Source: a virus
Reading direction: 5' to 3' (one strand)
IMG/VR virus record: IMGVR_UViG_3300027905_000036
Location: 1-20,331 of that record
Length of the DNA stretch: 20,331 nt
Below are positions 3,701 to 20,331 of this stretch, piece after piece. The stretch's first letter is position 1, and the number at the start of each line of letters is the position of its first letter. The position numbers and the translations under genes were made by a program. Below the pieces are notes generated by a model. The model searched no databases and was not told where the DNA came from. It saw nothing but the letters and a program-made list of their open reading frames with translations.

Positions 3701-4145
3701 CGGCTTCGACGACGCTGTACGCCATCCCGGCGGCGATCGCGAGGAACGCGGTCTTCCCGTGGGTGCCGAGCAGCCCGGTGGAAGCGTCAGCCTTCCCGGT
3801 CGCGGCCGCGGCCGCGTCAGCCGAGCCGACCTGGGCGTCCAGGGACGCCGACAGGGCATCAACGGAGCCGATGGCCCGGTCCTGGGATGCGGCCAGCTCG
3901 TTCGTGGCCACGGTCTGGTCATCGATCGCGGTCAGGAGCTGTCCGATGGCGTCGGCAAGCCCGGTGTCCGCCTCAGCGGTGCTGGCCGTGACCCCGGACA
4001 GCCGCGCCGCTGAGTCCGCGACGTCGTTGATCGCCGCGGCGACCCGGTCCAGGCCGCCGAGCATCTCGTCGAGCCCGGCCAGGAAGCTTTCCGCCGAAAG
4101 CGTAAATTCCTGATTCACCGGCGGCAGGAGAGGCGTTGCCCTCAC
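798..4145 (-). CDS. Tail tape measure protein (TMP)
   Basis: This is the largest gene in the window (1115 residues). It lies after the tail chaperones and sets tail length inside the tube. The N-terminal 150 residues are helical and Ala/Asp-rich. The TP901-1-type tape measure core is recognisable at about residues 300-410 (for example GLTTNKIAADLRR and MAKIFGGGRSDKAM). A hydrophobic double segment lies near 483-540 (LAGLILSLAVAMGVAATA, then VMLVVLAVIALIAGLYELY). The typical C-terminal motif FSPSKVMERLGLLVGEGI is near 758, and a related copy, IHSESTVAHWHGLMFAQGL, is near 1000. By the usual rule of about 0.15 nm per residue the tail would be roughly 165 nm; this is inference. The start is uncertain: GTG at 4145 is the longest option, but GTG at 4118 (VNQEFTLSAESF) reads like a natural N-terminus. 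The gene lies 14 bases after the gp10-like gene. Confidence 0.93.
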   Translation of the reverse strand: MRATPLLPPVNQEFTLSAESFLAGLDEMLGGLDRVAAAINDVADSAARLSGVTASTAEADTGLADAIGQLLTAIDDQTVATNELAASQDRAIGSVDALSASLDAQVGSADAAAAATGKADASTGLLGTHGKTAFLAIAAGMAYSVVEAAKFQAEVTRLYTAAGLVGVRAQKVSQDLLQLGDRAGYSGTQMAEAMYHPISAGLSYAAALRVVAYSAELARIHGANLEDTTYALSSVMKAYDVSAGGVAKTSALLNAIVGQGDMRFQDFVESIKNWTPTGAAMGISIQSMGAAIAYLTDRGNSAEVASTRLTMGLSMVTSGSKAANTYLSALGLTTGTLTLRNKTLQEVMLSAGLTTNKIAADLRRPDGIYVALTQIQDAFRKAGLSASQADEVMAKIFGGGRSDKAMLSLMSNLPNLRAKYEDIGRAVGDYGKSWEKTQATVAQQWHEALAGIQNLAISFGQILLPAVTKVLSVLARLFAYIQANPVLRILAGLILSLAVAMGVAATATAALSVAMDANPVMLVVLAVIALIAGLYELYKHCALVRRIVADVAHFFAGVWRDAVRLAGDVVHWFVTGPLAWIKAQLAVFAAFWKAHGAEIMKIAKAVWDFVAVAIQADWDIIKTVVRVAAALVVGVVKAAWDVVWGVTKMAWNLVATVISTTIRVILDIVGAVLDIIQGKWSQAGRELSNATSAIWHGIVHIIENIASGFGTILIQAGNALVRGLIGGIKSALGGLWSTITGIGHGIASAFSSVMHIFSPSKVMERLGLLVGEGIIVGLEGTASQVRSAAGKLATAVKDALTAGLITDRTAVTLTNWIERDNLRLQADATRRAAILKTIATAEKYATSTASSVTSWAGLSNVVSGMPSGSVITSQGLEAGLQADLAKIQKFNADIRRLSRLGLNRNLLNQIIQAGPDSGMQIAEALLNGPVSEIGQLNKTETQITAGATALGQQAANAMYDSGKYAGQGFLSGLEHQQKAIEALMARIAKAMVDRIRRELGIHSESTVAHWHGLMFAQGLASGMDAGRPLVDAAAKRLAGAAGFALAGRSGAAAGSGGTVTIENHYHVGPFNLASGFALANDAHLLTMLEPVVQKAVLQLEQRNPTSQTTTRAGRR

Positions 4146-4159
4146 CCCCGCCGCTGGGC

Positions 4160-4651
4160 TCAGGCTTCGAGTGCGGCCAGGAACGCCTTACCGGTGACCT
4201 TGCCGAACGTCCCGGACTCAATCAGCTTCACCGCAGACGGCCGCATGAACGGCCGGGCCGGGATCGTGACCGACTTGCCGAAGAACCCCGCCGCCGGGTT
4301 GCCGAGCACCGGGAAGTTCTTAGCGGTGATGTCCGGGTACCCGAATTCCTGGACGGTGCCGTAGAACAGGGTCGGCCCCCAGGCCGTCATCGCCCGGCCG
4401 GGTCCCGTCAGCACGGCCGGGGTGCGCTGCACGGACCTGGCCAGGTCACCGGAGATCTTCGCCGGCGGCGACCCTCTCGGCGACGGAGTCGGCGTTCCCA
4501 GCGCGTGGGTGCGCAGCTGGAGCGTCATCTTGACCATCGTCTCGCCCGCACGCCCCGCTGCCGTCGCAGCCGCGACCGGTGCCGTGGTCGCGGCCCTGTC
4601 GCGGATGACGCGGAGCCGGGCCGCTGCGTCCGCGGCTGCGTTGACGGCCAC
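4160..4651 (-). CDS. HK97 gp10-like minor tail/neck protein
   Basis: The protein has 163 residues and starts with GTG behind a GGGAGGGCCG ribosome site, 12 bases after the end of the frameshifted tail chaperone. Residues 1-50 are an Ala-rich helical segment. The diagnostic part is residues 91-140: LFYGTVQEFG (95-104) followed by PARPFMRPS (131-139). This matches the gp10-like family pattern of a Tyr-Gly...EFG stretch and a later PARPF-RPA motif. Proteins of this family normally help join or complete the tail. The family call is fairly strong and the exact role is inferred. Its place is unusual: it sits between the chaperones and the tape measure gene, while gp10-like genes usually lie between the head connectors and the tail tube gene. 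Confidence 0.75.
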   Translation of the reverse strand: MAVNAAADAAARLRVIRDRAATTAPVAAATAAGRAGETMVKMTLQLRTHALGTPTPSPRGSPPAKISGDLARSVQRTPAVLTGPGRAMTAWGPTLFYGTVQEFGYPDITAKNFPVLGNPAAGFFGKSVTIPARPFMRPSAVKLIESGTFGKVTGKAFLAALEA

Positions 4652-5329: not shown

Positions 5330-6499
5330 TCAGTACTGGGTGGTGACCCAGTTGGTCAGCGCGACCGATGCTACGCCGCCGTCCGTGGTGTTGCCGATGC
5401 CCGAGAACGCCTGCGCGAGCTGCAGGTACGGCGTCGAGACGTCCTTCTCGCCGGTGGTGTAGCCGGAGCTGGTCATGGTGATGGCCAGGATCTGGCCGCC
5501 GAGCAGCACCGGCTGGGTGAGGGTGTGAACGGTCGGCGACTGGACGTAGGACTTGAAGAGGCTCAGGTCGGCGTCTGACTCGAAGATCGCCTTGTACGTG
5601 CCGTCGATTTCCATCGCCCCGGCGAACAGCTCCCGCGGCGCCTGCGTGCCGTCGGAGGACTGGACGACCTCGAGGGGCCGCTTGAGCGTCAGGTCCGCGG
5701 TGAGTCCCCTGGTGGACGCCGCGCCGGCGTTGGTGACGGTCCAGCCCCAGCCGACCTGCGGCTGCACGCCGGACGCCGCGTAGGCGAACGTGGACTGCAC
5801 CGACGACGGCATGCCGGTGTACTTCGGCGCGAACGTGATGAACGACTTCGGGTCGATCTTGATGCCCAGCTCGGACATGACGCACCCGGCCCAGCCGAGC
5901 TGGTCCACGCCGTCGTCAGTCGTCAGGCTGTAGGTGGGCCAGACGGTGAAGAACGACCGGTTCTGCTTGAACGTGTGCAGCGTCGGGCTGAGCACGGTCC
6001 CGCCGGCCGCGGTGTGGGCGAACTTCGTCGAGTTGCCGCCCGTGCCGCCGCCGACCACCACGGTCGCGGCCGTCCCGATGGTGGTGACCTTCACGTACTC
6101 CAGGTTCGCGCCGGCGGAGTCGGAGATCTGGATGACCGAGCCGGTCGGCACGGTCGCGGTCAGGGTCAGGGAGGTCGCGTTGGCCGCGCTGTTGGACGCC
6201 AGGGTGGTGGACACCCCGGCGGTGACCACATCCGGGCCGATCATGGCGCGGAACCAGTGGCCTGCCAGGTCGGAGTAGCCGTTGACGCCGATGGACCAGT
6301 CGTCCTGCGCCGGGCCCTGGACGAGGCCCTGGAGGATGACGTCGTTGTTCCGGTACGACTCGTCGCGCAGCGGGATGATCGAGTCGACGTATTTGGTGCC
6401 GGTGTTGAACGGGATGGAAACGGTGGGCACCGTGTAGGTGTAGGGGGTGGCTTCCTTGGCGAGGCCGAGTTTGACGAGCCGGGAAAGGATGCCGCTCAT
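5330..6499 (-). CDS. Major tail (tube) protein with inserted beta domain
   Basis: The protein has 389 residues. Its ATG overlaps the stop of the upstream gene (ATGA). The N-terminus (LSRLVKLGLAKEATPYTY, then a Pro-rich VPTVSIPFNTGTKY stretch) is the classic opening of siphovirus tail tube proteins. The C-terminal half (ADLTLKRPLEV, EIDGTYKAIFESDADLSLFK, VLLGGQILAITMTSSGYTT) follows the alternating strand pattern of the tube fold. Residues about 92-168 are a Thr/Ala/Gly-rich beta segment (TSLTLTATVPTGSVIQISD, later GTGGNSTKFAHTAAGG) that looks like a separate domain inserted into the tube protein and probably exposed on the tail surface. The neighbours fit: the chaperones and tape measure gene follow directly. 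Confidence 0.88.
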   Translation of the reverse strand: MSGILSRLVKLGLAKEATPYTYTVPTVSIPFNTGTKYVDSIIPLRDESYRNNDVILQGLVQGPAQDDWSIGVNGYSDLAGHWFRAMIGPDVVTAGVSTTLASNSAANATSLTLTATVPTGSVIQISDSAGANLEYVKVTTIGTAATVVVGGGTGGNSTKFAHTAAGGTVLSPTLHTFKQNRSFFTVWPTYSLTTDDGVDQLGWAGCVMSELGIKIDPKSFITFAPKYTGMPSSVQSTFAYAASGVQPQVGWGWTVTNAGAASTRGLTADLTLKRPLEVVQSSDGTQAPRELFAGAMEIDGTYKAIFESDADLSLFKSYVQSPTVHTLTQPVLLGGQILAITMTSSGYTTGEKDVSTPYLQLAQAFSGIGNTTDGGVASVALTNWVTTQY

Positions 6500-6852
6500 G
6501 CCGTCTCCCCTGCGGGCTTGGTCCCGGCCGGAGTGCCGGTGCTGTCAGGTGCCGGGCTGGCGCCCGGTGGCTTGCCCGGCGCGGCGATGACCGGGACCGG
6601 CTTCGGCGTGCCTGTGCCTGCTGCGGGCGGCGGGTCTTCGCCGCTGCCGGGCGGCGTCCCGGCTGCGGGCTCAGCGGACGGCTCCGGGTAGCCGGTCACC
6701 TCACCGCCCGGCCCGTCGACCGGGACGAAGCCGGTGATGACGCCGTGCCCGGCGCGGTCCCAGCCGGGCCACTCGAACTCCCCGCCCGGGCCGACGCTGA
6801 GGCCGCGGTCGAACAGGTGCAGGACCTCGCCGGAGATGTTGCGGAACCACAC
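6496..6852 (-). CDS. Small structural-module protein with Pro/Gly-rich tail
   Basis: The protein has 118 residues and starts with GTG at 6852 behind an excellent ribosome site (AGGAGGTCAGCC). It ends in an ATGA overlap with the tail tube gene, so the two are translationally coupled. Residues 1-50 look folded (MWFRNISGEVLHLFDRGL, then a Trp-rich GGEFEWPGWDRAG). Residues 55-118 are a disordered, Pro/Gly/Ala/Thr-rich tail (for example PPGSGEDPPPAAGTGTPKP). I do not recognise the family. Its place just before the tube gene suggests a virion or assembly role. The start diverges from the plus-strand gene at 6891 across only 38 bases. Confidence 0.75.
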   Translation of the reverse strand: MWFRNISGEVLHLFDRGLSVGPGGEFEWPGWDRAGHGVITGFVPVDGPGGEVTGYPEPSAEPAAGTPPGSGEDPPPAAGTGTPKPVPVIAAPGKPPGASPAPDSTGTPAGTKPAGETA

Positions 6853-6890
6853 GGCTGACCTCCTGGCGTGGTGGGTGGGAGACTGGCGGG

Positions 6891-7097
6891 ATGATGCGCA
6901 GAAAGGCCCGGCCGATCGGCTGGAACGTCTACGTGGAGCGCGGCGACCAGTGGGGTCCCGTCATAGGCTCATCGGCCGAGTTCGCGGGCTTCGTTGCGCG
7001 CCGCCTCTGGCGTGACCGGCTGCCATTCGCCAGACGATCGTCAGCGCGGACGCCGGGTGAGGCTGCGAGCGTCGTGAGCGCCGGACTGCGGCGATGA
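6891..7097 (+). CDS. Small basic protein of unknown function, first gene of plus-strand island 1
   Basis: The protein has 68 residues and starts ATG ATG (either Met possible) after a GGGAG site. It lies on the strand opposite to the late operon. The sequence has a well-formed first half (PIGWNVYVERGDQWGPVIG, then SAEFAGFVARRLWRDR) and an Arg/Ala/Ser-rich second half. I do not recognise it. It is coupled to the next gene by an ATGA overlap at 7094-7097, and that coupling is the main reason to treat it as real. It diverges from the minus-strand gene that starts at 6852. No clear sigma70-type promoter is visible in the 38-base gap, so transcription may begin inside the opposite gene. Confidence 0.6.
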   Translation: MMRRKARPIGWNVYVERGDQWGPVIGSSAEFAGFVARRLWRDRLPFARRSSARTPGEAASVVSAGLRR

Positions 7098-7249
7098 CCA
7101 TGAGCCGCGTCATCTGCCGCGTCCTGGGCCACAGACAGGCCGTCCGGGGCGGCTACGAGGAGCGCTGGTACGGCCCTGGCTGGATACCGGAGCCCTGCTG
7201 CGCCCGGTGCGGGCTGCCGCTCGGACCCAGGCCCTTCCTCACCCGTTGA
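7094..7249 (+). CDS. Small zinc-ribbon protein, DUF1660-like, plus-strand island 1
   Basis: The protein has 51 residues, and its ATG lies inside the stop of the preceding gene (ATGA). The N-terminal VICRVLGHR and the C-terminal CCARCGLPLG give the pattern C8-x4-H13 ... C35/C36-x2-C39-G. This is the layout of short phage proteins with a C..LGH start and a CxRCG end (the DUF1660-type arrangement, from memory). The ligands suggest one bound zinc. The partner and role are unknown. The 3' end overlaps by 11 bases, tail to tail, with the minus-strand gene that ends at 7239. An internal ATG at 7100 is an alternative start. Confidence 0.62.
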   Translation: MTMSRVICRVLGHRQAVRGGYEERWYGPGWIPEPCCARCGLPLGPRPFLTR

Positions 7250-9391: not shown

Positions 9392-10774
9392 TTACAGCGA
9401 CGGATTCATGCGTGCGCCCCGGCCAACAAATCGGCTGGTCCGCACGGCAAACACCGTGTCACCTATGATTGCGTAAGGAAGTGTGTCCGGGCTTGCGGTG
9501 GTTGGATACACGTCGACCGGGTGTGCCTCCCTCACGTACGGCCTGACCACGTTGTTCCGGTCCCGGCTGATGAGGTAGAACGACTCCTCGCCGGCTGCCA
9601 GGGGCAGCAGGCTCGCGTTCGTCCCGAAGTACACGGTCGGCAGGGTCGCCGGGACGGTCGGGCCGGTCGAGTTCTGCGGCACCAGCGCGGTGCCGGTGTC
9701 GACGATCTGGTTGGTCAGGACGGGCGTGACGCCGTCGGCGGCCAGGCCCACGGTCGCGTCGACGTAGCCGAGGAACGTCTCCGACCCCGGCGGCCCGCCC
9801 GCCGCGGTCCGGTACACCTTGTACGACTGCGGCGACAGGCCGTCCAGGCCGGTGGGCGGGGTGAACGACAGGGTGATGGTGTTCGTGGAGGTGCCGCCGC
9901 CGGTGGCCTGGGACACCTCGGCCGACGGGAGCGTCTCGCCCTGCCGCGCGATCACCGGGGCGAGGACGTACTTGTAGGTGGTGGACAGCGGGATCGTCCC
10001 GCCGATGGTCGCGGTGGCCGCGGTGACGGTGCCCATCGAGTAGCCGTACGGGCTCAGGAACGACGTCGGCACCAGCGGGACGTTCTTGTAGCTGGACACC
10101 AGGAGTCCGGGGGCGATCTCGACCTGGGTGAACCGCTGCTGGTTCGTCAGCAGCTGCTCGATCTTCGCGATCGCCGTGGTCGACATGATGAACTGCCAGC
10201 TCGAGTCCCGCACCGGCTGGGAGGAGTTCCGGGAGACGGTGTTGATCACCTGGTCGAGCATCGCCAGCGACAGCGAGTTCCCGCCGAAGTCGATCGAGTT
10301 CTTGTAGCCGGTGGTGAAGTCGGACACGAGGATGTCGAGGCCGTCGAACTGCGGCTGCGCCTGGTTCGCGGTCGCCAGTGCGCAGCCCCACACCATGGCG
10401 CACTCGACGTCCCAGTAGTAGCCCTGGATCGCGCCCATGATTTCAGTGGCCCGCAGGTCACCGATGACCATCTGGGTGACTTCCTGGGCGTACCCGGTGA
10501 CGCCGCCCACGGTCAGGACGTGCTTCATCTGGTACTGGTTCTGCACGTACACCGAGGTGGAGATGGGCCGGGCGCCGCCGTCGGGGACGAAGCCGCCGCT
10601 CGCGACAGTCGTGCGCTGGTTGAAGTAGTAGATGTCGCCCTTCCAGGGCTGCGTCGGAACGGACCGGCACAGCGGGGCGAAACGGCGCTGGTACTCGACC
10701 AGGATCGGGTCGATGATCTTGGGGATAAGGGCGCTTGCGCCAGCGGCGGTGAGCGCCTCGCGAAGCTCGGACAT
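9392..10774 (-). CDS. Major capsid protein (HK97-like) with an inserted Ig/FN3-like domain
   Basis: The preferred start is ATG at 10774 (MSELREALTAAG), behind AAAGGGG, giving 460 residues. An in-frame ATG at 10855 would add 27 residues but lacks a good ribosome site. Residues 1-240 show the capsid pattern: an N-terminal arm (LIPKIIDPILVEYQRRFAP), an E-loop-like stretch (KGDIYYFNQRTTVASGGFVP), a long helix region (GDLRATEIMGAIQGYYWDVE), and LDQVINTVSRNSSQP with FIMSTTAIAKIEQLL. The chain resumes at about 375-460 (PTVYFGTNASLLPL to RTSRFVGRGARMN). Between them, residues about 247-366 form a Thr/Gly-rich beta domain (TYKYVLAPVIARQGETLPS; QSYKVYRTAAGGPPGSETF) like FN3/Ig capsid surface domains. 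It follows the protease-scaffold gene, the normal order. Confidence 0.9.
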   Translation of the reverse strand: MSELREALTAAGASALIPKIIDPILVEYQRRFAPLCRSVPTQPWKGDIYYFNQRTTVASGGFVPDGGARPISTSVYVQNQYQMKHVLTVGGVTGYAQEVTQMVIGDLRATEIMGAIQGYYWDVECAMVWGCALATANQAQPQFDGLDILVSDFTTGYKNSIDFGGNSLSLAMLDQVINTVSRNSSQPVRDSSWQFIMSTTAIAKIEQLLTNQQRFTQVEIAPGLLVSSYKNVPLVPTSFLSPYGYSMGTVTAATATIGGTIPLSTTYKYVLAPVIARQGETLPSAEVSQATGGGTSTNTITLSFTPPTGLDGLSPQSYKVYRTAAGGPPGSETFLGYVDATVGLAADGVTPVLTNQIVDTGTALVPQNSTGPTVPATLPTVYFGTNASLLPLAAGEESFYLISRDRNNVVRPYVREAHPVDVYPTTASPDTLPYAIIGDTVFAVRTSRFVGRGARMNPSL

Positions 10775-10963
10775 GGCCGGAGCCCCTTTCTCAACGAGAA
10801 GAGCCCCCGCCATCGGGCGAAGGCTCACGGTTGGATTGGCGACCATTGCGGCCATGCGGCACCAGCGCGGCGCTGGCGGTCAGGTAGAGCGGTCAGGCTC
10901 GCGAGGCGGGAAGGGCTGCCGCCCGGCGCCGCGCCTCGCGAGAACGGCGCCGGGCGGGAATGG
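10775..10963 (-). promoter_or_regulatory. Structured capsid mRNA leader with interleaved inverted repeats
   Basis: This 189-base gap between the protease-scaffold stop and the capsid start holds no convincing gene. It contains two perfect 11-bp inverted repeats that are interleaved: GCCCGGCGCCG (10921-10931) with CGGCGCCGGGC (10945-10955), and CTCGCGAGGCG (10898-10908) with CGCCTCGCGAG (10932-10942). The order of arms is A-B-A'-B', so the two stems either exclude each other or form a pseudoknot. A further palindrome CCAGCGC-G-GCGCTGG lies at 10862-10876. A hairpin GAGCC..CGCC/GGCG..GGCTC lies at 10801-10826, about 27 bases before the capsid ATG. No clear promoter was recognised. Confidence 0.6.
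10921..10955 (-). terminator. Terminator-like hairpin after the protease-scaffold gene
   Basis: A perfect 11-bp GC stem with a 13-base loop begins about 8 bases after the TGA (10964-10966). No U-run follows. It could be a partial terminator that separates protease-scaffold from capsid transcription, or one state of the two-stem switch described for the leader. Confidence 0.5.
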
Positions 10964-12859
10964 TCAGGCGATCTTGGCGGCCCGCTCGCCGAACACGTGG
11001 TTGGCCAGGACCGGGGCGGTGCGGGCGATCAGGTCCTCGTGCGACATCTCGTGCAGCGGCTTGTCGCCCCACGACGCGGGCATCTTCGTCTTCTCGCTGA
11101 TGACGTCCGCTCCGCTGTTCGCCGCGGCGGCCTGCTCGGCGGTCATGACGATGCCCTTGCGGCCGGGTGCGAGCTGCCCGGACTGGACCATCCGCGCGGT
11201 GGCCGCATCGACGCCTTCCTGCACGAGGCGGGTAATCCGCTGCTCGTCGGTCTCCTGCGGGAACTTCGCGGCGATCGCGGCGTCGACCATCCGCTGCACC
11301 TTCTCGGCTTCGGTCTCAGTCACGGCTGCGGGAGCCGCTGGCGCGGCCGGGGCAGCCTCAGCCGCCGGTGCAGCGGCCGCGGTCCCGGCCGCAGGTGCCG
11401 GGTGCGCTGCGGCGAACGCCGCCAGTGCCCGGTTTGCGGCAGCCTCGATGATCGCGTCGAGCTGCGCCTGGGTGTAGGCGGGAGCGGCCGGGGCGGTGGT
11501 CTCGGCCGCGGGGGCGGTGGTCTCCGGCATCGCGGATTCCGTCCTTTCCGTGGTTTCGCCGGCGGCCGGTTCCGGTGCCGGGGTATCGGTTGCCTCGGCC
11601 ACGCTGGCCGGGCCGTCTGCCGGCGCGGTCTCGCCTGCGCCGCCGTCGTGGTCGGTGTCCTCGGAGCCGGCGCCGTCCACGTCGATGTCGCCGTCCATGT
11701 CCGGGTCCAGCGCGGCCAGGGCCTTGCACGCAGCGTCAGCGGCGGCGCGGAGGATCAGGTCAAGGTCGGCCGGGTCCATGCCGTAGCACGACAGGCACAG
11801 GTTGATCGGGCCGTTGGACGCGTTCAGCGACCAGGAGCCGGAGGTCTGCGGCGAGCCGTAGTCGCCGTACCACTCCCGCAGCTCGGACTCGGTGACCTGA
11901 CGCGCGGGCTCGATGACCCAGCCCTCAGCGGCGACCTTGACGCCGAAGGCCTTCAGCGCCTTCATGATCCGGCCCTTGACGCGCTTGAGCTGCGCCGCGG
12001 TGTACTTGGCCGCGTTGTCCTTCTGGTTCACATATGACCAGGCGGCCTTGGCCAGGGCCTTGGTGGTCAGGTCATACCTCTGCTTGCCATCGGCCTGATA
12101 GCCCGGATCGGCGTAGACCTTGCTCCCGCCGGTCAGGCCGCTGCCCCGCTTCGACAGCGGCAGCGCGGCACTGGACGCCTCGCACAGGCCATTGCGGAGG
12201 ATGACCGGCGGCTCGGGCGGCAGAGCGCGCAGTGTCTCCCTCAGCGCTTCCCGCGCCTCAGCCGTCATCTGCGGTGCCGCCTCCGTCGCTGTCTCTTCGG
12301 TGATCGCGGTCACGCGCGCCTCCTGGACGCTCTCGGTGATGGGCACCCGCTCATCGGTCTCGGTGCGGGTGCCGTCTGCGGTCCAGGCGAACGTGTCGAT
12401 CTGCGCGTCGGCTACGCCCGGTGACCGGGTGAAGTCCAGCCCGTCGATGATGAGCCCGTCCGCAGTTTCCACGGGCTGGCCATCGGGTCCCTTGACCGTG
12501 CGGACGGTGCCCGTCCAGTAGCCGCGGATCGACACGTTCCGCAGGAACGGCGGCTGCCCGTCGGCGGTGCTGGCCAGGTTCGCGATGTCCCATCCGGCCG
12601 GGGTGTCAGGGAGGTCCGAGGCGAAGCGGAGCCGCCCGTTCTCGTCCAGGCTCACCGCAGTCAGGGAGCCGCTGATCTCGCGGCTGTCATCGCCTGCCGC
12701 GTGGTGGGTGAGCATGACCATCGGCTCGGTGCCGTCCTTGAGGCGCTTCTGCGCCCGGGCGACCGCTCCGACGATGTGCTCCGGGGTGTAGAGCCGCCGG
12801 TTTTTCGAGATCCCCGGCGCGAGCCCGACTCCGCCGATGGTCGCGATGGCCTTAGCCAC
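10964..12859 (-). CDS. Prohead maturation protease fused to scaffold, with a DUF6582-like domain
   Basis: The protein has 631 residues and starts with GTG at 12859 after AAGGGGGAG. Residues 1-160 look like a gp21/assemblin-type prohead serine protease: MVMLTHHAAGDDSRE holds the likely catalytic His52/53, LRNVSIRGYW the likely Ser110, and GLDFTRSPGVADAQI closes the domain. Residues about 247-310 (YADPGYQADGKQRYDLTTKA; KRVKGRIMKALKAFGV) match a DUF6582-type helical domain. A CLSC pair follows near 354-357. An acidic DPDMDGDIDVDG...DTDHDGG stretch near 384-406 looks like a Ca-binding loop. Residues about 410-515 are an Ala/Pro/Thr-rich linker, and 515-631 a helical scaffold-like end. The protein probably shapes the prohead and then cuts itself and the capsid N-terminus. 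The domain borders are by eye. Confidence 0.8.
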   Translation of the reverse strand: MAKAIATIGGVGLAPGISKNRRLYTPEHIVGAVARAQKRLKDGTEPMVMLTHHAAGDDSREISGSLTAVSLDENGRLRFASDLPDTPAGWDIANLASTADGQPPFLRNVSIRGYWTGTVRTVKGPDGQPVETADGLIIDGLDFTRSPGVADAQIDTFAWTADGTRTETDERVPITESVQEARVTAITEETATEAAPQMTAEAREALRETLRALPPEPPVILRNGLCEASSAALPLSKRGSGLTGGSKVYADPGYQADGKQRYDLTTKALAKAAWSYVNQKDNAAKYTAAQLKRVKGRIMKALKAFGVKVAAEGWVIEPARQVTESELREWYGDYGSPQTSGSWSLNASNGPINLCLSCYGMDPADLDLILRAAADAACKALAALDPDMDGDIDVDGAGSEDTDHDGGAGETAPADGPASVAEATDTPAPEPAAGETTERTESAMPETTAPAAETTAPAAPAYTQAQLDAIIEAAANRALAAFAAAHPAPAAGTAAAAPAAEAAPAAPAAPAAVTETEAEKVQRMVDAAIAAKFPQETDEQRITRLVQEGVDAATARMVQSGQLAPGRKGIVMTAEQAAAANSGADVISEKTKMPASWGDKPLHEMSHEDLIARTAPVLANHVFGERAAKIA

Positions 12860-13930: not shown

Positions 13931-15442
13931 CTAGGCGAGGAAGGCGGCTAGCGCCTTGAACGGGGCCACGTCATCGGCCGGCACGACCACGCACCGGCAG
14001 CCTGGATGGATCGCCGGGACGGGGCAGTCAGAAAGCGAGTACGGGTTGTTTTCCTCGTAGTCGTCACAGATCGGGCAGACCCTGTCGTCGCCGGCTGTGA
14101 TGAAACTGCATTCGGGCAGGCCCTCTGATGCGTACAGGTCCAGTGATGCCTGGGACATGGCCTGTGCCATCGCCTGCTGCGTGAACGCGGTCACCGCGCG
14201 GACGGCCGCCGAGGTCTCCCCGTCAGCCTCGATCGCGGTCGTGACCGCCGTGGCCATCTCGGCGCGCGACGCGCCTTCCTCGAAGAGCCGGGCGAGGAGC
14301 CGGCCGACGTCGGCGGCGCATCCGGCGAGCATCCGCTGGATCCACTGCTGCGCCAGGAGCGGCAGGCTGGGGAGGTTGGCCAGTCGGTCGTAGATGGCCT
14401 GGTAGGCGGCGTCCCACGAGTACGTCCTGCTGTCTGACTCGGTGACCGTGTGGCCGTGCTTCTCGGCGTTCAGCGCGAGCACGCCGGCTTTGCCCTCGGC
14501 CATCGCCGACCGGAGCGCGTCTTCCACGGCGGCTTGCAGGTCGCTGTGCCTGTCGTGGGCGTAGACGCCGGCCAGGAGCGATCCTGCCGCTGTGCCGGTC
14601 AGCATCCGGAGGTAGGCCCGCTGCTCCGGGTTCAGCGGGCCGAACGGGCCGACCTCGGCGCGGAGCCGGTCGATGACCGGGCCGGCGTGCTCGTGCGGGG
14701 CGACCGTCTCCCACGCCCTGAGCACGGTCGCGGTGTGCGCCTCGGTGAGATCCTGCCGCCGCTGGAAGAACCGCGCCATGGTGCCTTCGAGCGATCCGAT
14801 AATCAGGGTCGTCTCCAGGACGTGCGGGTCGCCGGCGTGCTCGCGGGCTGTCTCGGCTGCTGCGACCGCGCCGGCGGCGACACGATCCGTCCACGGGCCT
14901 CCGCTGAGCGCCCAGCCGGCCGCGTACGCCTCGGCGGCCGCCTGGGTGATGTCACCGGCGAACGGGTAGCTGGTTACGTCCTCGCCGTGGACCGCGCGAA
15001 GCTCGGCGAAGCTGACATCCTCAGCCGGCAGGCGCCCTACCGGGTCGTCATCATCCGCGCCGATATACCGCAAAGTGAGATGCGGGCAGTACCCGTGGTC
15101 ACGGGGGACGTCGATCCCGGCTTCGGCGAGCTTGTCCAGCGCCGCGGCGCGCAGCGTTTCGAGCGCGGCCGAGTCAGCCAGGGCGACGATCACATCGGAG
15201 TCGCCGCCGGTGAAGCGGGCGTGCCCTGAGATCGTCCCGGTGAGCGGCCCCGTGCTCGCCGCGAGCTTGCCCGCCACCTCGTTCAGCGCGCCGGCGTCCA
15301 CGTCCGCCGCGCTGCCCGTGTAGCAGACGGTCAGGTGGATGTCCGCTGGCTCGAGGCCATCATCGACGGCGAGCCTGGCGGCCAGTTCCGCCGGCGGGTA
15401 GAGGGCGAGCATGCTGCCGTCTGAGTAGTCCGGCTGCGCCAC
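13931..15442 (-). CDS. MuF-type head morphogenesis protein with N-terminal 2H phosphoesterase-like domain
   Basis: The protein has 503 residues and starts with GTG at 15442 after CGGGAGG. Residues 1-165 carry two H-x-T motifs, DIHLTVCYTG (His36, Thr38) and PHLTLRYIG (His121, Thr123), 85 residues apart. This is the signature of the 2H superfamily (2'-5' RNA ligase / cyclic phosphodiesterase). Residues about 180-440 are helical MuF-like sequence (for example RFFQRRQDLTEAHTATVLRA). The C-terminus has the Mu gpF Cys/His motif: DDRVCPICDD (Cys456, Cys459) and HPGCRC (His479, Cys482, Cys484). MuF proteins sit with the portal in the prohead, and some are injected with DNA. Both 2H motifs are intact, so the N-domain may be an active enzyme carried in the virion; that part is inference. 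Confidence 0.87.
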   Translation of the reverse strand: MAQPDYSDGSMLALYPPAELAARLAVDDGLEPADIHLTVCYTGSAADVDAGALNEVAGKLAASTGPLTGTISGHARFTGGDSDVIVALADSAALETLRAAALDKLAEAGIDVPRDHGYCPHLTLRYIGADDDDPVGRLPAEDVSFAELRAVHGEDVTSYPFAGDITQAAAEAYAAGWALSGGPWTDRVAAGAVAAAETAREHAGDPHVLETTLIIGSLEGTMARFFQRRQDLTEAHTATVLRAWETVAPHEHAGPVIDRLRAEVGPFGPLNPEQRAYLRMLTGTAAGSLLAGVYAHDRHSDLQAAVEDALRSAMAEGKAGVLALNAEKHGHTVTESDSRTYSWDAAYQAIYDRLANLPSLPLLAQQWIQRMLAGCAADVGRLLARLFEEGASRAEMATAVTTAIEADGETSAAVRAVTAFTQQAMAQAMSQASLDLYASEGLPECSFITAGDDRVCPICDDYEENNPYSLSDCPVPAIHPGCRCVVVPADDVAPFKALAAFLA

Positions 15443-15466
15443 GCCCGGCCTCCCGCCGCGTAGTAT

Positions 15467-15730: not shown

Positions 15731-15907
15731 ATGATCGTGGCACTCAGGATCAGCGAGTCGATCCGGGTAGGGCCGTTCCGGTTCCGGGTCAGCACACCGC
15801 TGTCCGGCCGGGGCCGTACCTGGGTGTCAGCGGGCACCAGGACCGGCAGGCGAGGGTGGGCGAGCGTGTCACGGCCAGTAGGCGGACGGAGACGGCGCAC
15901 CCGGTAG
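15731..15907 (+). CDS. Small basic protein, DUF4236-like pattern, plus-strand island 2
   Basis: The protein has 58 residues from ATG at 15731, with TAGGAGAG just upstream. GTG at 15737 has better spacing to that site and may be the real start. The pattern is ISESIRVGPFRFRVSTPLSG, then RTWVSAGTRTGRRGWASVSR, and an Arg-rich end. A charged RxSxRxGP-type strand followed by Gly-turn strands resembles the short DUF4236 motif, but the match is only suggestive. It is the second gene of the island. A 12-codon frame lies between it and the zinc-ribbon gene (GTGA and TGATG overlaps). Its last 39 bases overlap, tail to tail, with the minus-strand gene that ends at 15869. Confidence 0.5.
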   Translation: MIVALRISESIRVGPFRFRVSTPLSGRGRTWVSAGTRTGRRGWASVSRPVGGRRRRTR

Positions 15908-16153
15908 ACCTTCGGGCGTGGCCAGCCGACCGATCACCGAGCCGGTCGGCGCGTGCATCTGGTCGGTCTCGTAGTGCCTGCCGCGATCACCGGAGTACGC
16001 CGCCAGCAGCGCGGCCCGTTCCTCGCGGCTCGGTATCCGCTGGTGCGGCCAGATCACGACGTGGTCCACGTCGTCGAACGTCAGACCGCAGGCGCAGGGC
16101 GCGCGGTCTTCGCCGAGGAGGTTCGGATCGGTGCCGTCGCAGTGGCGGATCAC
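15869..16153 (-). CDS. Small Cys-motif protein (CACG type), last gene of small-gene string
   Basis: The protein has 94 residues, and its ATG overlaps the upstream stop (ATGA). The N-terminus is MIRHCDGTDP, followed by CACGLTFDDVDHVVIWPHQR at residues 20-39. Cys5, Cys20 and Cys22 (with nearby His) could bind zinc. The protein at 16634-16975 has its C-A-C-G at the same residues, 20-23, and a Cys at residue 9, so the two are probably distant paralogues. The rest is helical (SREERAALLAAYSGDRG) and ends in a Pro-rich tail. The function is unknown. The 3' end overlaps the plus-strand gene by 39 bases. Confidence 0.68.
   Translation of the reverse strand: MIRHCDGTDPNLLGEDRAPCACGLTFDDVDHVVIWPHQRIPSREERAALLAAYSGDRGRHYETDQMHAPTGSVIGRLATPEGLPGAPSPSAYWP
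15925..15950 (+). terminator. Candidate terminator hairpin for plus-strand island 2
   Basis: GCCGACCG (15925-15932) and CGGTCGGC (15943-15950) form a perfect 8-bp stem with a 10-base loop, 17 bases after the stop of the last plus-strand gene. It lies inside the opposite coding frame and has no U-run. The assignment is therefore tentative. Confidence 0.35.
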
Positions 16154-16491
16154 GCTGGCGGCCCGATCGGCATGCCCGCGTTCTCCAGCACCTGGGACGT
16201 GGGCTCGAAGGGCTTCGGCGGGACGTGCTCGCCCCTGTCATCGCCGGCGACCCGTTCCAGGTACAGGTAGCTGCCTGCCGGCAGCACCGCGACGACGGTC
16301 GGCGACACGCTCCGGTTCCGCATGACCACGCAGCCCGGCAGGTCCGAGTCGGTGGACGGGTAGACATCGTGCAGGATGCGCTCGCGGCCGTCGGCGAGCG
16401 TGAACCGCCATGTGCCCGGCTCGCGCTCCTGAACGGGCGGTGGCGAGAGTCCTGGCACGCTTGGCGGGGGTCCGTGCTTCATGCCCGGCAT
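16150..16491 (-). CDS. Small protein of unknown function in the coupled string
   Basis: The frame has 113 residues from ATG at 16491. ATG at 16482 (MKHGPPPSVPG) is better spaced from an AGGA and may be the true start. The N-terminus is Pro-rich. The core is beta-like: PGTWRFTLADGRERILHDVY, then LPGCVVMRNRSVSP and PTVVAVLPAGSYLYLERVAG. It ends with a Pro-rich HVPPKPFEPTSQ and helix. I do not recognise the family. It is coupled to the next gene by an ATGA overlap at 16150-16153. Confidence 0.65.
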   Translation of the reverse strand: MPGMKHGPPPSVPGLSPPPVQEREPGTWRFTLADGRERILHDVYPSTDSDLPGCVVMRNRSVSPTVVAVLPAGSYLYLERVAGDDRGEHVPPKPFEPTSQVLENAGMPIGPPA

Positions 16492-16499
16492 CCTACAGG

Positions 16500-16637
16500 T
16501 CAGCCGATCAGCTTCGGCAGGAACGGGCTCGCGGCGGCAGCGGTGAGCGGCTGGTTCGGCAGTGTCGACGGCTCCCAGGCGGCGGTAGTCCCCGGTAGCT
16601 GGTAGGGCTGCTCGGGCGGCGGCTGCGGATCGCTCAT
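16500..16637 (-). CDS. Very small Pro-rich protein (45 residues)
   Basis: The ATG lies in an ATGA overlap with the stop of the upstream gene. The reading is MSDPQPPPEQPYQLPG, then TTAAWEPSTLPNQPLTAAAA, SPFLPKLIG and TGA. It is Pro/Ala-rich and likely unstructured. The first residues (MSDPQP) echo the upstream protein (MSEPQP), which may mark a small duplication. The coupling at both ends supports it as a real gene; the function is unknown. Confidence 0.55.
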   Translation of the reverse strand: MSDPQPPPEQPYQLPGTTAAWEPSTLPNQPLTAAAASPFLPKLIG

Positions 16638-16975
16638 ACCGGCAATCCGAAGTGGGCTCGTACCGAAGCCGCCCGGAGTTGGTCGAGCCGGGCTATCGCC
16701 TGCCTCTGGACTCCGGTCAAAGGACGTTCGGTGATCGTGAACCCCGTGATGGGAATCGCCTTCGGGCCAGCGCCGCGCGGGTCGCCGTAGAGCAGCCTGT
16801 TAAGCACATGCTCGCGGGCTATCGGCCCAATGCCCTCCAGCCTCATCGCCAGCTCAACGACTCGCAGCATAGTTGCCATGTGAACTGGCTCGGCCTCGAT
16901 TGTCTCCCCGCAGGCGCAGGCCATGCCGCCCTCGGTCATCTGGAAGTAGCAGACGTGCGGTTGCGGCTCGCTCAT
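16634..16975 (-). CDS. Small Cys-motif protein (CACG type)
   Basis: The protein has 113 residues, with its ATG in an ATGA overlap with the upstream stop. The N-terminus, MSEPQPHVCYFQMTEGG then ACACGETIEAEP, places His7, Cys9, Cys20 and Cys22 as a likely zinc site. The C-x11-C-x-C-G layout is shared with the 94-residue protein at 15869-16153. The rest is helical and ordered: HMATMLRVVELAMRLEGIGP, AREHVLNRLLYGDPRG, and VQRQAIARLDQLRAAS. This looks like a compact helical domain carried on a zinc-stabilised N-terminus. No named family or function. Confidence 0.7.
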   Translation of the reverse strand: MSEPQPHVCYFQMTEGGMACACGETIEAEPVHMATMLRVVELAMRLEGIGPIAREHVLNRLLYGDPRGAGPKAIPITGFTITERPLTGVQRQAIARLDQLRAASVRAHFGLPV

Positions 16976-17433
16976 GCCGGGCTCACGATCGCCTGGACCG
17001 CCGCAGCGTCCAGCGGCTCCAGATCGCAGGAGTACTCGCCGATGCCGGTCTGCGTTCGGCTGGCTACCCGGTAGTAGACCAGGCCGTCCGGGCTGCTGGC
17101 CTGAACGATGGCGCCGACAGCCGGTTCAGGCAGGCCCGTGGCGGCCGTGTCGTAACGCGGTGCCGGCTCCCTGCAATCCGCCGGCGGCGTCCATCCCATC
17201 GCCACCAATGCGTCGCGGGTGGTTTCCTCCAGGCTGCACCGGGCTTCGAGCGTCCAGACGCTGCCCTCATAGACGGGCAGTGTGATTGTCAGCTCAGGTG
17301 CCGTCTCCCCGTTGCCGCTGTCGAACTCCAGCCGGGCGAACGGGAGCAGGTGGCCGCCGACCTTCAGCGCCAGGTTGGGGAACACGGTGCCCGTCAGCTC
17401 GACGTGAGTCAGGCCCGGTGCGGTCTCTCCCAT
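16972..17433 (-). CDS. Beta-rich protein of unknown function
   Basis: I chose ATG at 17433 because it overlaps the upstream stop (TGATG) and has GGGGAGG at the right distance. A longer frame to 17487 lacks these signals. The product has 153 residues. The N-terminal part is strand-rich: LTHVELTGTVFPNLALKVGG, then LLPFARLEFDSGNGETAPEL and VYEGSVWTLEARCSLEETTR. The C-terminal part, GAIVQASSPDGLVYYRVASR with TQTGIGEYSC, looks like a small beta-barrel. The family is not recognised. Its stop is coupled to the following CACG protein by ATGA. Confidence 0.7.
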   Translation of the reverse strand: MGETAPGLTHVELTGTVFPNLALKVGGHLLPFARLEFDSGNGETAPELTITLPVYEGSVWTLEARCSLEETTRDALVAMGWTPPADCREPAPRYDTAATGLPEPAVGAIVQASSPDGLVYYRVASRTQTGIGEYSCDLEPLDAAAVQAIVSPA

Positions 17434-17666
17434 CAGCCCTCCCCGGTGTACCTGACCAGCCTCGGCTTGCCCTCGCAAGCCTGGCACTGCTCAGCGTAGC
17501 CGTGCAAGGTGACGCCCGAGCCGCCGAGAAGGTAGACGGGCACGGAGATCACCGAGGGGAGGAAGCAGGTCTCGCACCACAGGCCCGTGATCGGATCGCC
17601 AGGCATTGCCCGGATGGCGACCGAGCGGCCGTCGTCGCTGAGGTCCAGCTGGGGATCGCGGGCCAT
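17433..17666 (-). CDS. Small zinc-ribbon protein (CxxC ... CxxC)
   Basis: I chose ATG at 17666 (MARDPQLDLSDDGRS), which overlaps the preceding stop (TGATG). A 16-residue upstream extension to 17714 lacks support. The product has 77 residues with WCETC (Cys31, Cys34) and QCQAC (Cys61, Cys64), a four-Cys zinc ribbon with a 26-residue loop of strands (SVISVPVYLLGGSGVTLHGY). It may bind nucleic acid or stabilise a virion or host-takeover complex. The role is not known. Confidence 0.68.
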   Translation of the reverse strand: MARDPQLDLSDDGRSVAIRAMPGDPITGLWCETCFLPSVISVPVYLLGGSGVTLHGYAEQCQACEGKPRLVRYTGEG

Positions 17667-17749
17667 CAGCAGCCGACCAGCTCCGCAGTGTCGTGACCGT
17701 CCGGGCCCATCCACGTGAACTCGCCCTGCGGGTCGCTCGTGGTACTCAT
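17666..17749 (-). CDS. Tiny ORF of 27 residues in the coupled string
   Basis: It runs from ATG at 17749 to a TGA whose last base is the first base of the next ATG (TGATG). The reading is MSTTSDPQGEFTWMGPDGHD, then TAELVGC. It starts 5 bases after the upstream gene and has only a weak ribosome site. The exact fit between neighbours supports translation, but at this length chance cannot be excluded. Confidence 0.4.
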   Translation of the reverse strand: MSTTSDPQGEFTWMGPDGHDTAELVGC

Positions 17750-17754
17750 GCAGG

Positions 17755-17994
17755 TCAGTGCGCCCGGTGCCGGTAGACGTGCTTCAGCGGCACTTCCGCC
17801 GACGCCGACGCCAGCGGCGTGGTGTCGTCCTCGTTCAGAAGCTCCCGCGTGCTGCCCACCGTGAAGGTGACCGAGTCCACCTTGTGGTGCTCCGCCAGCT
17901 TGCCGGCGAACTCCTTCAGCATCGCGTCGGCGTCGTCATCCCGCTCGTTGTCGTGGATGCCCGCGCCCTCGATGTGCATCGACCAGTGGCCCAT
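17755..17994 (-). CDS. Small conserved-looking hypothetical protein
   Basis: The protein has 79 residues, with ATG at 17994 behind GAGGAG. It begins with a strand and His-rich turn (MGHWSMHIEGAGIHDNERDD). An amphipathic helix (DADAMLKEFAGKLAEHHKVD) and another strand (VTFTVGSTRELL) follow, then a polar tail ending in HVYRHRAH. The small alpha-beta layout is compact and well formed. I recall similar short proteins in soil actinophages but cannot name a family. It opens the string of coupled small genes that runs down to 15869. Confidence 0.7.
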   Translation of the reverse strand: MGHWSMHIEGAGIHDNERDDDADAMLKEFAGKLAEHHKVDSVTFTVGSTRELLNEDDTTPLASASAEVPLKHVYRHRAH

Positions 17995-18021
17995 TTGCGT
18001 ACTTCTCCTCGCTGATAGGTC

Positions 18022-18357
18022 TCACAGTTGCGGCAGGTCCACCGCGAACGCATTCCGCGCCGGTGCCTGGACAGCACCGGTGCCGATCCACTCGTATGTC
18101 CACACACCGGTCGCCGTCGCCGGTGTGGTGTCCAGGTCCGCGTGATACAGCCCGACGCCGTCCTTCACGATCGGCGCCGACGGGTAGGTGACAGTGACGA
18201 CCGCCTGCCCTGTTCCCGGCCGGTACTGCAGCGTGACCGTGGTCGGGTCAGCGAGGTTGCCGTTAACGTCGCGGAAGCCGCCCGCTGGCGACAGGATCGG
18301 CCCGGAGTAGGTGGCGACCCTGACCAGGGAACCGGCGAGGTAGGAGTTCACCGCCAC
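18022..18357 (-). CDS. Ig-like beta-sandwich phage protein
   Basis: I prefer GTG at 18357 (VAVNSYLAGSLVRV), just after the upstream stop. GTG at 18387 would add ten residues and overlap that gene by 23 bases; GTG at 18351 is also possible. The product has 111 residues. The strands are regular: LVRVATYSGPILSPAGGFRD, PTTVTLQYRPGTGQAVVTVT, KDGVGLYHADLDTTPATATG and a closing VWTYEWIGTGAVQAPARNAF. The motif of Asp-Pro-x-x-V-T-L, then Y-H-A-D-x-D, then a Trp-x-Tyr-x-W strand, is typical of small bacterial Ig-like modules seen in many phage structural regions. It may decorate the head or tail. Position and fold support this; a specific role is inference. Confidence 0.72.
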   Translation of the reverse strand: MAVNSYLAGSLVRVATYSGPILSPAGGFRDVNGNLADPTTVTLQYRPGTGQAVVTVTYPSAPIVKDGVGLYHADLDTTPATATGVWTYEWIGTGAVQAPARNAFAVDLPQL

Positions 18358-18364
18358 CCCCGGC

Positions 18365-19471
18365 TCACGGGTCGCTGTCGTAGGCACCCGCTGTCGCCGC
18401 CGGCCAGTCAGCGGCGGTGACCGTCTCCGCCATCCAGTCGGCCGCAGCGGCCGTCATGACCGGCCAGTCCGCAGCTCCCGTGGTTGCCGCCGGCCAGTCC
18501 GCCGCGCCGGCGCCGAACACGGCCCAGTCGAACGCGCCGGCCGTCCCGATCGGCGGGGCACCCGGCAGCAGCTGCAGCAGAAGGGCGCCGGCGGACCCGC
18601 ATGCCCCCGCGAACCTGCGGGCAGCACCCCGCAGCCACCGGCCGGCCGCGGCCGTCGTGCCAGCGAACCGCATGGCCACGGCACGGCTGACGCTGCCCGC
18701 GGACACGACCGGCCCGGCGTACGTCACTGACGCCGCGCGGAGCCACATCCCGGCCGATGGCAATGAGGCGGCGTACGTCCGGGCTGCCGCGCGGCTGAGC
18801 ACGCCAGCGGTGGCCGCCACAGCAGCCAGGGTGAGGTGCAGCAGCCGGCCGAGCACCATGCTGGCCGCCGTGGCCGCCGTCGCCGCCCAGGCCCGGGCAA
18901 CATCGCGGATCAGGCTGGCTGACGTCGCCGCGGTGCCGGCGAACGTCATGCGTGCCTGACGGGTCAGCGACCCGGATGTGGCGGCGGTCCCTGCGAAGAT
19001 CCTGGCACCCTGCCTGGTCAGTGATCCCGACGTGGCCGCGGTCGCCGCGAGCGTCCGGGCTGCCTGCCGCGTCACGGCCCCTGACGTGGCCGAGGCGCCG
19101 GCCAGGTTTCTCCCGCAGCCGCGGCCAAGGGTGCCGCTGCCTGACCCCGATCCGGCGAACGTCCGGCCGGCGGCGCGGGCTGCCGACCCCGTGGTCGCAG
19201 CTGAGCCGCCCAGCGTCCGGCCGGCCAGCCGGGCAAGCGAACCTGCGGAGCTGGCCGCGCCGGCGAAGGCTTCCGAGGCTGCCCGCGTGAGTGCCCCGCC
19301 GGTCGCTCCCGTGCCAGCCCACGACCGGCCAGCCTGCCTGACCAGTGATCCGGTCGTGGCCGCCGTCATCGTGAGCGTCAGGAAGTACGTCGTGCCGCCG
19401 CCAGAGGAAGGTTTCGGCTGCTGCAGGATCAGGTAGGCCGCGGCTGGCCTGCTGCGGCCTAGCCGGGACAT
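18365..19471 (-). CDS. Repeat protein: fifteen 18-residue units plus Asp-Trp decapeptides
   Basis: The protein has 368 residues, with ATG at 19471. After a 40-residue N-terminus (YLILQQPKPSSGGGTTYFL), residues 41-311 consist of tandem 18-residue units near the consensus GSLTRQxARTFAGTAATS. Unit 10 is 20 residues and unit 15 is imperfect. Residues 312-361 switch to five decapeptides around GAADWPAATT, with AFDW, AADW, AADW, AADW and AADW cores. Each 18-residue unit pairs a short Leu-x-Arg strand with a hydrophobic Phe-Ala-Gly turn, which could stack as a beta-solenoid or form amphipathic helices. There is no signal peptide. Neighbours are putative virion proteins, so a fibre-like or surface part is likely. 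The stop precedes the Ig-like gene. Confidence 0.8.
   Translation of the reverse strand: MSRLGRSRPAAAYLILQQPKPSSGGGTTYFLTLTMTAATTGSLVRQAGRSWAGTGATGGALTRAASEAFAGAASSAGSLARLAGRTLGGSAATTGSAARAAGRTFAGSGSGSGTLGRGCGRNLAGASATSGAVTRQAARTLAATAATSGSLTRQGARIFAGTAATSGSLTRQARMTFAGTAATSASLIRDVARAWAATAATAASMVLGRLLHLTLAAVAATAGVLSRAAARTYAASLPSAGMWLRAASVTYAGPVVSAGSVSRAVAMRFAGTTAAAGRWLRGAARRFAGACGSAGALLLQLLPGAPPIGTAGAFDWAVFGAGAADWPAATTGAADWPVMTAAAADWMAETVTAADWPAATAGAYDSDP
18389..18538 (-). repeat. Five 30-bp units encoding the Asp-Trp decapeptide
   Basis: The units encode GAFDWAVFGA, GAADWPAATT, GAADWPVMTA, AAADWMAETV and TAADWPAATA in order. The Asp-Trp core is kept in all five while the flanks vary. This points to selection on the protein, with diverged DNA copies. 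Confidence 0.8.
18539..19351 (-). repeat. Fifteen 54-bp units encoding the 18-residue repeat
   Basis: The units start at residues 41, 59, 77, 95, 113, 131, 149, 167, 185, 203 (20 residues), 223, 241, 259, 277 and 295. Units 7 and 8 are the most alike (GSLTRQ...FAGTAATS twice), which suggests the most recent duplication. The outer units have drifted, and the last keeps only the period. Confidence 0.85.
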
Positions 19472-19484
19472 CGGCTACCCGCTC

Positions 19485-20018
19485 TCAGTACGTTTCGAAG
19501 ATCGCGTAGATGTAAGCGTTCACCGAGGTGGCGAAGGTCATCCGCACCCGCAGCGCGTCGCCGGACACCACTTCAGGCTCACGGCCGAGCGGCCACTGCT
19601 TGCAGTACGGGCCGACCGGGTTCAGGCACAGATCCTTCATTTTCGCCGCAGTGACCGTGCCCTCGGTGCCGGCACCGGTGGCGAACGCCGACAGGCCGGT
19701 GCCGAGATTCAGCGGCACACCCGTCGAGCCTGACGTGTTGGCCGGCGCGTTCGGGTCGTTGTGCGGCTGGACGTCCGCCACCGCGTAAGCCGCCGACATG
19801 CCGGTGCAGAACACGGTGCCCGTGTCAACCAGCTCGACCTCGCCGGGTGTCGCGTAGGAGTCGAGCGAGAAGCCCCACTCGACGATGCGGATCGTCACGC
19901 CCGGGGCCAGCTGCATCATGGTGCGGATCGCGGTGCCGGTCGGCTGCTTCACCGGGGCGGCGGTGGTGACCATCGCGCTGTTGTGCACGAGGTAGGTCTT
20001 CGCTGACACGCTGACCAC
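19485..20018 (-). CDS. Putative virion-associated protein of unknown family
   Basis: The protein has 177 residues from GTG at 20018; GTG at 20009 (VSAKTYLVHNS) is an alternative. Strand-rich sequence (TRTYLVHNS-like start; AIRTMMQLAPGVTIRIVEWG; EVELVDTGTVFCTGMSAAYA) is followed by a Pro/Asn-rich loop. The C-terminus, SGDALRVRMTFATSVNAYIY then AIFETY, reads as a closing strand pair. The phrase order of a response strand (RIVEWGFSLD), then a Thr/Gly-rich loop, then a YIYAIFE end recurs in phage structural proteins of high-GC hosts, from memory. The function is unknown. It lies between a partial beta protein and the repeat protein in a tight operon. Confidence 0.75.
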   Translation of the reverse strand: MVSVSAKTYLVHNSAMVTTAAPVKQPTGTAIRTMMQLAPGVTIRIVEWGFSLDSYATPGEVELVDTGTVFCTGMSAAYAVADVQPHNDPNAPANTSGSTGVPLNLGTGLSAFATGAGTEGTVTAAKMKDLCLNPVGPYCKQWPLGREPEVVSGDALRVRMTFATSVNAYIYAIFETY

Positions 20019-20025
20019 CCCCGGG

Positions 20026-20331
20026 TTAGTAGATGGCTGCCCGGTTCACGGCCTGCATCAGGGCCAGCGCCTGGGCGGGCGGCAGCAGGCCGAGCACGAC
20101 GATCGTCGCCGTCGCGGTCAGGATCGTCGCCGACACTGTCTGGGCGGATGTGCCGCCGGTCAGGTAGCCGACGGTGGTGTAGGTGTTGGCGCTGGTGTGC
20201 AGCTGGCCGATCTGGCTGAAGCCGTTGCCCAGGGTCGGCGCGCCGCCGCCGCTCGCGTTGTTGTAGATCGCGATGAGCATCTCGCCGGCCTGCTGCGGCG
20301 TGCCCGACGTAACTGACGGGCTGGTGCCGGA
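20026..20331 (-). CDS. Beta-rich putative structural protein (partial, 5' end outside window)
   Basis: The frame is open to the right edge, so the gene starts outside the window. An internal ATG at 20280 is probably not the start, because in-frame sequence before it (SVTSGTPQQAGEMLIAIYNN) is continuous with the domain. The 101 visible residues hold alternating strands: GEMLIAIYNNASGGGAPTLG, FSQIGQLHTSANTYTTVGYL, SAQTVSATILTATATIVVLG. It ends in a short helix (PPAQALALMQAVNRAA). This GD/GE-hydrophobic strand pattern is typical of the C-terminal part of phage beta-sandwich surface proteins. The next gene's GTG is 8 bases after its stop. Confidence 0.65.
   Translation of the reverse strand, partial: SGTSPSVTSGTPQQAGEMLIAIYNNASGGGAPTLGNGFSQIGQLHTSANTYTTVGYLTGGTSAQTVSATILTATATIVVLGLLPPAQALALMQAVNRAAIY

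Follow-up and report, generated by a model that had tools for sequence, protein, structure and literature searches.

A 2H phosphoesterase domain fused to a divergent MuF head protein in a soil actinophage, and its possible delivery against host defence

The window, which is the whole stretch of DNA analysed here, is a linear IMG/VR virus record of 20,331 bases. It is >99.8% identical to three other IMG/VR contigs over 10–14 kb, and one of them is 33.5 kb long. The protein under study consists of 503 aa and is identical or near-identical in three other IMG/VR contigs. An earlier note on this DNA had described the ORF as a MuF protein carrying a 2H domain at its N-terminus, with both H-x-T motifs of the 2H superfamily (His36/Thr38 and His121/Thr123) and with a Cys/His motif near the C-terminus. 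The ORF, the two domains and all three motifs are present as described. The features of the locus are summarized in Table 1.

Table 1. Features of the 2H-MuF gene and its surroundings (positions in the window).
Feature	Position	Strand	Basis or remark
Major capsid protein	9392..10855	(-)	SU10_MCP (Pfam), PHROG major head protein
Downstream head gene, 631 aa, conserved	10964..12859	(-)	Same position in most 2H-MuF loci
Gene for 503-aa 2H-MuF fusion protein	13931..15442	(-)	GTG start at 15442; also in three other IMG/VR contigs
MuF / SPP1 gp7-like C-terminal domain (residues 383-491)	13970..14296	(-)	Pfam, PHROGs, TIGR01641
Cys/His cluster CPIC...HPGCRC (residues 456-484)	13991..14077	(-)	Conserved in 12 relatives
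Alpha-helical middle of MuF half (residues about 165-440)	14123..14950	(-)	AF2 full-length model
2H phosphoesterase domain, residues 1-163	14954..15442	(-)	Pfam PF13563, AF2, Foldseek to solved 2H enzymes
Second catalytic motif H121-L-T123	15074..15082	(-)	Opens predicted strand 121-127 (DSSP); H 53/53, T/S 51/53
First catalytic motif H36-L-T38	15329..15337	(-)	Opens predicted strand 37-44 (DSSP); H 53/53, T 53/53
GGGAGG, Shine-Dalgarno-like	15449..15454	(-)	6 nt upstream of GTG start; direct sequence reading

Downstream of the 2H-MuF gene are the genes for the 631-aa head protein, the SU10-type capsid protein and a tape measure protein. The only Pfam match of the 631-aa protein is DUF6582. 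It occupies the place of the head maturation protease or scaffold, and from this position it is a putative protease. In a longer contig (L014), terminase (2895-4484) and portal (5577-7232) genes are both upstream of the 2H-MuF gene. These two assignments are based on the translations and on homologues at the same place in related loci, one of which has a Pfam portal match. The 2H-MuF gene is placed between the portal and the protease/capsid genes, as MuF-type genes are.

The gap between the portal and MuF genes is ~6.5 kb in this phage, and the corresponding part of the window (15869-20280) contains mostly small genes without a clear family. Unlike in the window phage, the two genes are nearly adjacent in many relatives. 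In the window, an Ala-rich protein of 368 aa, composed of degenerate repeats, is encoded in this gap (18365-19471, minus strand). It includes a 54-base tandem unit at 18921-19100 and has no match in PHROGs.

The Pfam family 2_5_RNA_ligase2 (PF13563) covers residues 27-130 and, with E=1.9e-9 and 38.1 bits, exceeds its cut-off of 27 bits. When the domain is aligned with eight other phage 2H domains, which are 25-33% identical to it, only six columns are invariant (H36, T38, G73, P120, H121, and T123), and four of the six are the catalytic tetrad. Among 53 non-redundant domains (pairwise identity below 90%), H36, T38 and H121 are each conserved in 53/53, whereas the top residue of a column reaches a fraction of 0.57 on average. 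At position 123, 51/53 domains have T or S, the exceptions being L075 (HIA) and L093 (HVC). These facts indicate that the 2H assignment is not a matter of chance. The 2H half shows dN/dS of about 0.15-0.36 in close pairs, indicating purifying selection. Decay of the domain is ruled out by the invariant catalytic residues together with dN/dS well below 1, and on this sequence evidence loss of function is not its general state.

The structure of residues 1-171 was predicted by AlphaFold2 with eight family members (pLDDT 88.4, pTM 0.84). The predicted model has the duplicated alpha/beta 2H fold, with the two motifs on equivalent strands. Foldseek against solved structures (PDB) returned 44 matches at E<=0.001, and the top ones are 2H enzymes with probability 1.00. 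The best match is a Deinococcus 2',3'-cyclic phosphodiesterase (9e-9), and Thermus TT0787 and E. coli LigT are also among the best. The earlier note had named two findings that would speak against its reading: a fold lacking the 2H active site, and homologues in which the two His are not conserved. The fold comparison and the conservation of H36 and H121 both came out in its favour. Considering the fold and the active-site conservation, the N-terminal domain is very probably a catalytically active 2H enzyme.

Among predicted viral structures, the top Foldseek matches include the Gordonia GMA6 protein and the Brevibacterium Cantare "RNA ligase", as well as several large proteins of Gordonia and Microbacterium, of which some are named structural. 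By sequence, the full-length protein has no significant relative among solved structures. Full-length Foldseek gave significant matches to the 2H part only and to no solved MuF protein, and PADLOC reported nothing for the 503-aa protein.

In 2H enzymes, two His and two Thr/Ser carry out a metal-free attack on phosphodiesters beside a 2'-OH, as in the case of Acb1, in which bases are stacked by W74 and W147 (PMC9117128). Acb1 and the window domain share the 2H fold and the HxT/HxT tetrad. The Acb1 profile scores 20.4 bits against a cut-off of 27, and Foldseek places Acb1 (4e-5) behind 2',3'-cyclic phosphodiesterases and LigT. As read from the sequence, residues 1-163 contain no Trp at all, so the Trp residues specific to Acb1 cannot be present. 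An identity with Acb1 is rejected on the profile score and the lack of Trp. Also, to our knowledge, no Acb1 is part of a head protein. Therefore, of the interpretation in the earlier note, the 2H assignment and the fusion stand, while the Acb1-like anti-CBASS role becomes only one of several options for the substrate.

The closest solved folds, which are RNA 2',3'-cyclic phosphodiesterases and LigT, raise the question of RNA repair. The 2H domain could act in a healing pathway by opening the 2',3'-cyclic phosphate ends of tRNAs that host anticodon nucleases have cut, and 2H enzymes in phage RNA repair are described in a 2022 survey of NAD+-ADPr (PMC9503650). However, the score for the ThpR/LigT equivalog TIGR02258 (21.8) is far under its cut-off of 65.7, and LigT_PEase scores 18.0 against 23.3; ThpR proper is rejected on these scores. 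According to Iyer et al. 2017, 2H domains of the polyvalent type are never found with RNA ligases (PMC5512222). Damage to tRNAs would accrue during infection, and a head-bound copy produced from a late gene would be oddly placed for repair. RNA repair is considered unlikely. The matches also include Usb1, which is compatible with an injected RNase effector that cuts host RNA as a toxin instead of acting on a signal. Such an effector is one of the two options raised by Iyer et al. 2017, where the fusions are said to parallel those of PBECR RNase domains (PMC5512222). Usb1 is matched more weakly than 2',3'-cyclic phosphodiesterases and LigT, and an RNase effector appears improbable.

In the C-terminal half, Phage_Mu_F of Pfam matches residues 387-486 (E=1.6e-5) with 26.0 bits, just under its cut-off of 29.6, and TIGR01641 of NCBIfam (phageSPP1_gp7) matches with 32.9 bits (E=6.5e-8), below its cut-off of 39.65. 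Several head-morphogenesis families of PHROGs match the C-terminal end at around 1e-9. C456, C459, H479, C482, R483, and C484 are invariant in 12 relatives. Judged from these matches and residues, the C-terminal MuF domain is real but divergent.

Because the profile built from the nine divergent domains varied too much for scanning collections, a closer family alignment was used. The scan of IMG/VR found 46 loci. As for the same domain pair in other phages, for which the earlier note had suggested a search, the N-terminal 2H-MuF fusion is seen in 37/46 loci, and the 2H domain is a stand-alone gene in 9/46. The 37 fused loci include three copies of the window phage and a few further mutual duplicates. 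The same or homologous fusions are present in many independent contigs, ruling out the fusion as an assembly error. The gene order terminase-portal-2H/MuF-protease-capsid is kept in most of the sufficiently long loci. In one stand-alone locus (L063), read in detail, the 2H gene has the portal gene on one side and the gene of a Clp-type protease on the other, with an HK97-type capsid gene after the protease. This locus represents a different head type from the fused loci.

The 2H domain is missing from five MuF relatives (L009, L028, L032, L034, and L036) and is therefore dispensable. The MuF relative in L009 is 51% identical and starts at residue 164, which is exactly the domain border, indicating that the 2H domain is a removable module. 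In 298 sampled Streptomycetaceae genomes, 11 contain the 2H domain, and 4 of the 11 belong to the 2H-MuF family. Of the others, at least three (L087, L088, and L092) encode the prohead protease S78 followed by 2H in one polypeptide of 660-690 aa, with S78 and 2H both over the Pfam cut-offs, and one (L090) has 2H after a ParB-type domain. Arthrobacter phage Ottawa has a 2H-XkdF protease and Arthrobacter phage Beagle has MuF followed by 2H. The presence of 2H on different head-interior proteins indicates a mobile module, and its exchange among head proteins is more in keeping with a cargo than with a structural part. Between L029 and L033, dN is 0.056 for the 2H halves and 0.31 for the MuF halves, which points to recombination at the domain border or to unequal rates of change.

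These observations bear on whether the 2H domain could have a role during phage production, in assembling the head or packaging the DNA, with no delivery. In the surveyed family, the domain does belong to the head operon, and its fusion partners are assembly proteins, proteases among them. Against such a role, MuF proteins without 2H exist, the 2H domain hops between head types, and conservation is highest at its catalytic residues. An assembly role is given a low probability.

Other domains were seen in the surroundings of this family. In L058 (3944-8509), an apparent intein interrupts the Cys/His motif of the 2H-MuF relative (HPSC...HN|CRC), with a Pfam match to Intein_splicing that stays below the cut-off (E=7e-4). 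The long C-terminal part of this protein contains two motifs of metallopeptidase type (HEAGH and HELAH). The relative in L060 (2457-4937) is extended at the C-terminus by ~330 residues, which weakly resemble a kinase (PI3_PI4_kinase, E=0.005; motif HDRNIGNW...LIDHG). The portal protein in L009 (975-2966) has a C-terminal extension that looks by eye like the ParB/sulfiredoxin type (VDGHHRTLAYL), while Pfam matched the portal part only. L090 encodes a ParB C-terminal-type domain (PHROG 2579, E=3e-36) followed by 2H in one frame (1378-3381, minus strand). In two Gordonia phages (L001, 6747-7835; L003, 6696-7811), a gene for a VIP2-like ADP-ribosyltransferase is directly after the 2H gene, and its product is likely another packaged effector.

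The following can be proposed for the 2H-MuF protein. The MuF half would anchor a minor head protein at the portal within the capsid and, if SPP1 gp7 is a guide, would bring the catalytically intact 2H phosphoesterase of the N-terminal half into the head. The protein might leave the head together with the DNA and act in the first moments of infection. The 2H half would then attack 2'-OH-assisted phosphodiester bonds of a small RNA or nucleotide signal, and the most likely outcome would be the blunting of a host defence based on nucleotide signalling or RNA cleavage. The location inside the virion is probable, considering the MuF homology and the gene position. Delivery to the host is an even matter, and a defence signal nucleotide as the substrate is possible, with a chance somewhat below even. 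Taken as a whole, an injected 2H-MuF head protein attacking an RNA or nucleotide signal against host defence is the best explanation, and is judged slightly more probable than not. It is based on the Pfam and fold matches, the invariant His, the purifying selection, the gene order and the domain exchange among head proteins. The C-terminal extensions in L060 and L058, the SPP1 gp7 precedent and the published predictions also speak for it. The MuF relatives without 2H and the 2/53 domains without the second Thr/Ser count against it. Our literature search found no virion proteomics, injection or enzyme assay for the 2H-MuF family, and no test of substrate or cell delivery for this combination. 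It can be speculated further that actinophages have a widespread cargo system in which 2H enters the procapsid alone or on any protein that goes there, be it MuF or the prohead protease, is injected, and destroys a defence nucleotide before phage gene expression, with a recognition unlike that of Acb1. This extended idea is doubtful.

If delivery and substrate were shown, they would provide a mechanism by which phages disable defences that signal through nucleotides or cleave RNA from the very start of infection, before gene expression. The set assembled here consists of the 37 fused and 9 stand-alone loci and of prophage-type copies in Streptomycetaceae genomes. Isolated phages of Gordonia, Arthrobacter and Brevibacterium with related domains are culturable test cases for the prediction.

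Among known systems, the prototype of MuF proteins is SPP1 gp7, which binds the portal, is present in few copies inside the procapsid and aids the start of infection (PMC6316719). The window protein resembles SPP1 gp7 and Mu gpF in the C-terminal MuF domain and in its position between the portal and capsid genes. It differs from them in the extra N-terminal enzyme domain and in its scores under the curated cut-offs. In the MuF polymorphic toxins of temperate phages, the MuF domain is likewise the carrier of an effector. There, the effector is at the C-terminus, whereas it is N-terminal in the window protein, so the protein is not counted among these toxins. Actinophage proteins named "RNA ligase" (Gordonia Chidiebere and GMA6; Brevibacterium Cantare; Arthrobacter Beagle and Ottawa) contain a homologous 2H domain with both motifs and are encoded near the portal. 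They are 25-33% identical, and are separate genes or have another fusion order (MuF-2H in Beagle and 2H-XkdF in Ottawa).

The closest counterparts are the fusions of 2H domains to MuF or portal domains in Iyer et al. 2017, where 2H domains are considered as possible RNases or as degraders of nucleotides of counter-invader systems (PMC5512222). In the 2022 survey, 2H-MuF and 2H-portal fusions are regarded as probably packaged and injected against oligonucleotide signalling (PMC9503650). The idea of an anti-defence role is therefore not new. The window protein has 2H and MuF in one polypeptide encoded in a late head operon, and it shares the two domains, the head-operon setting and the proposed role with the published fusions. 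While these sources present the fusion as a class, the window lineage has the 2H domain at the N-terminus and is from a soil actinophage. Fusions to the S78 and XkdF prohead proteases were found here, and the passages available from PMC5512222 and PMC9503650 do not mention them for 2H. The 2H-MuF protein is a well-supported further case of a fusion class in print since 2017. To this class, the present analysis adds a large actinophage family with a strictly conserved active site, its gene order, the clean gain or loss of the domain, and a broader range of head proteins bearing 2H.
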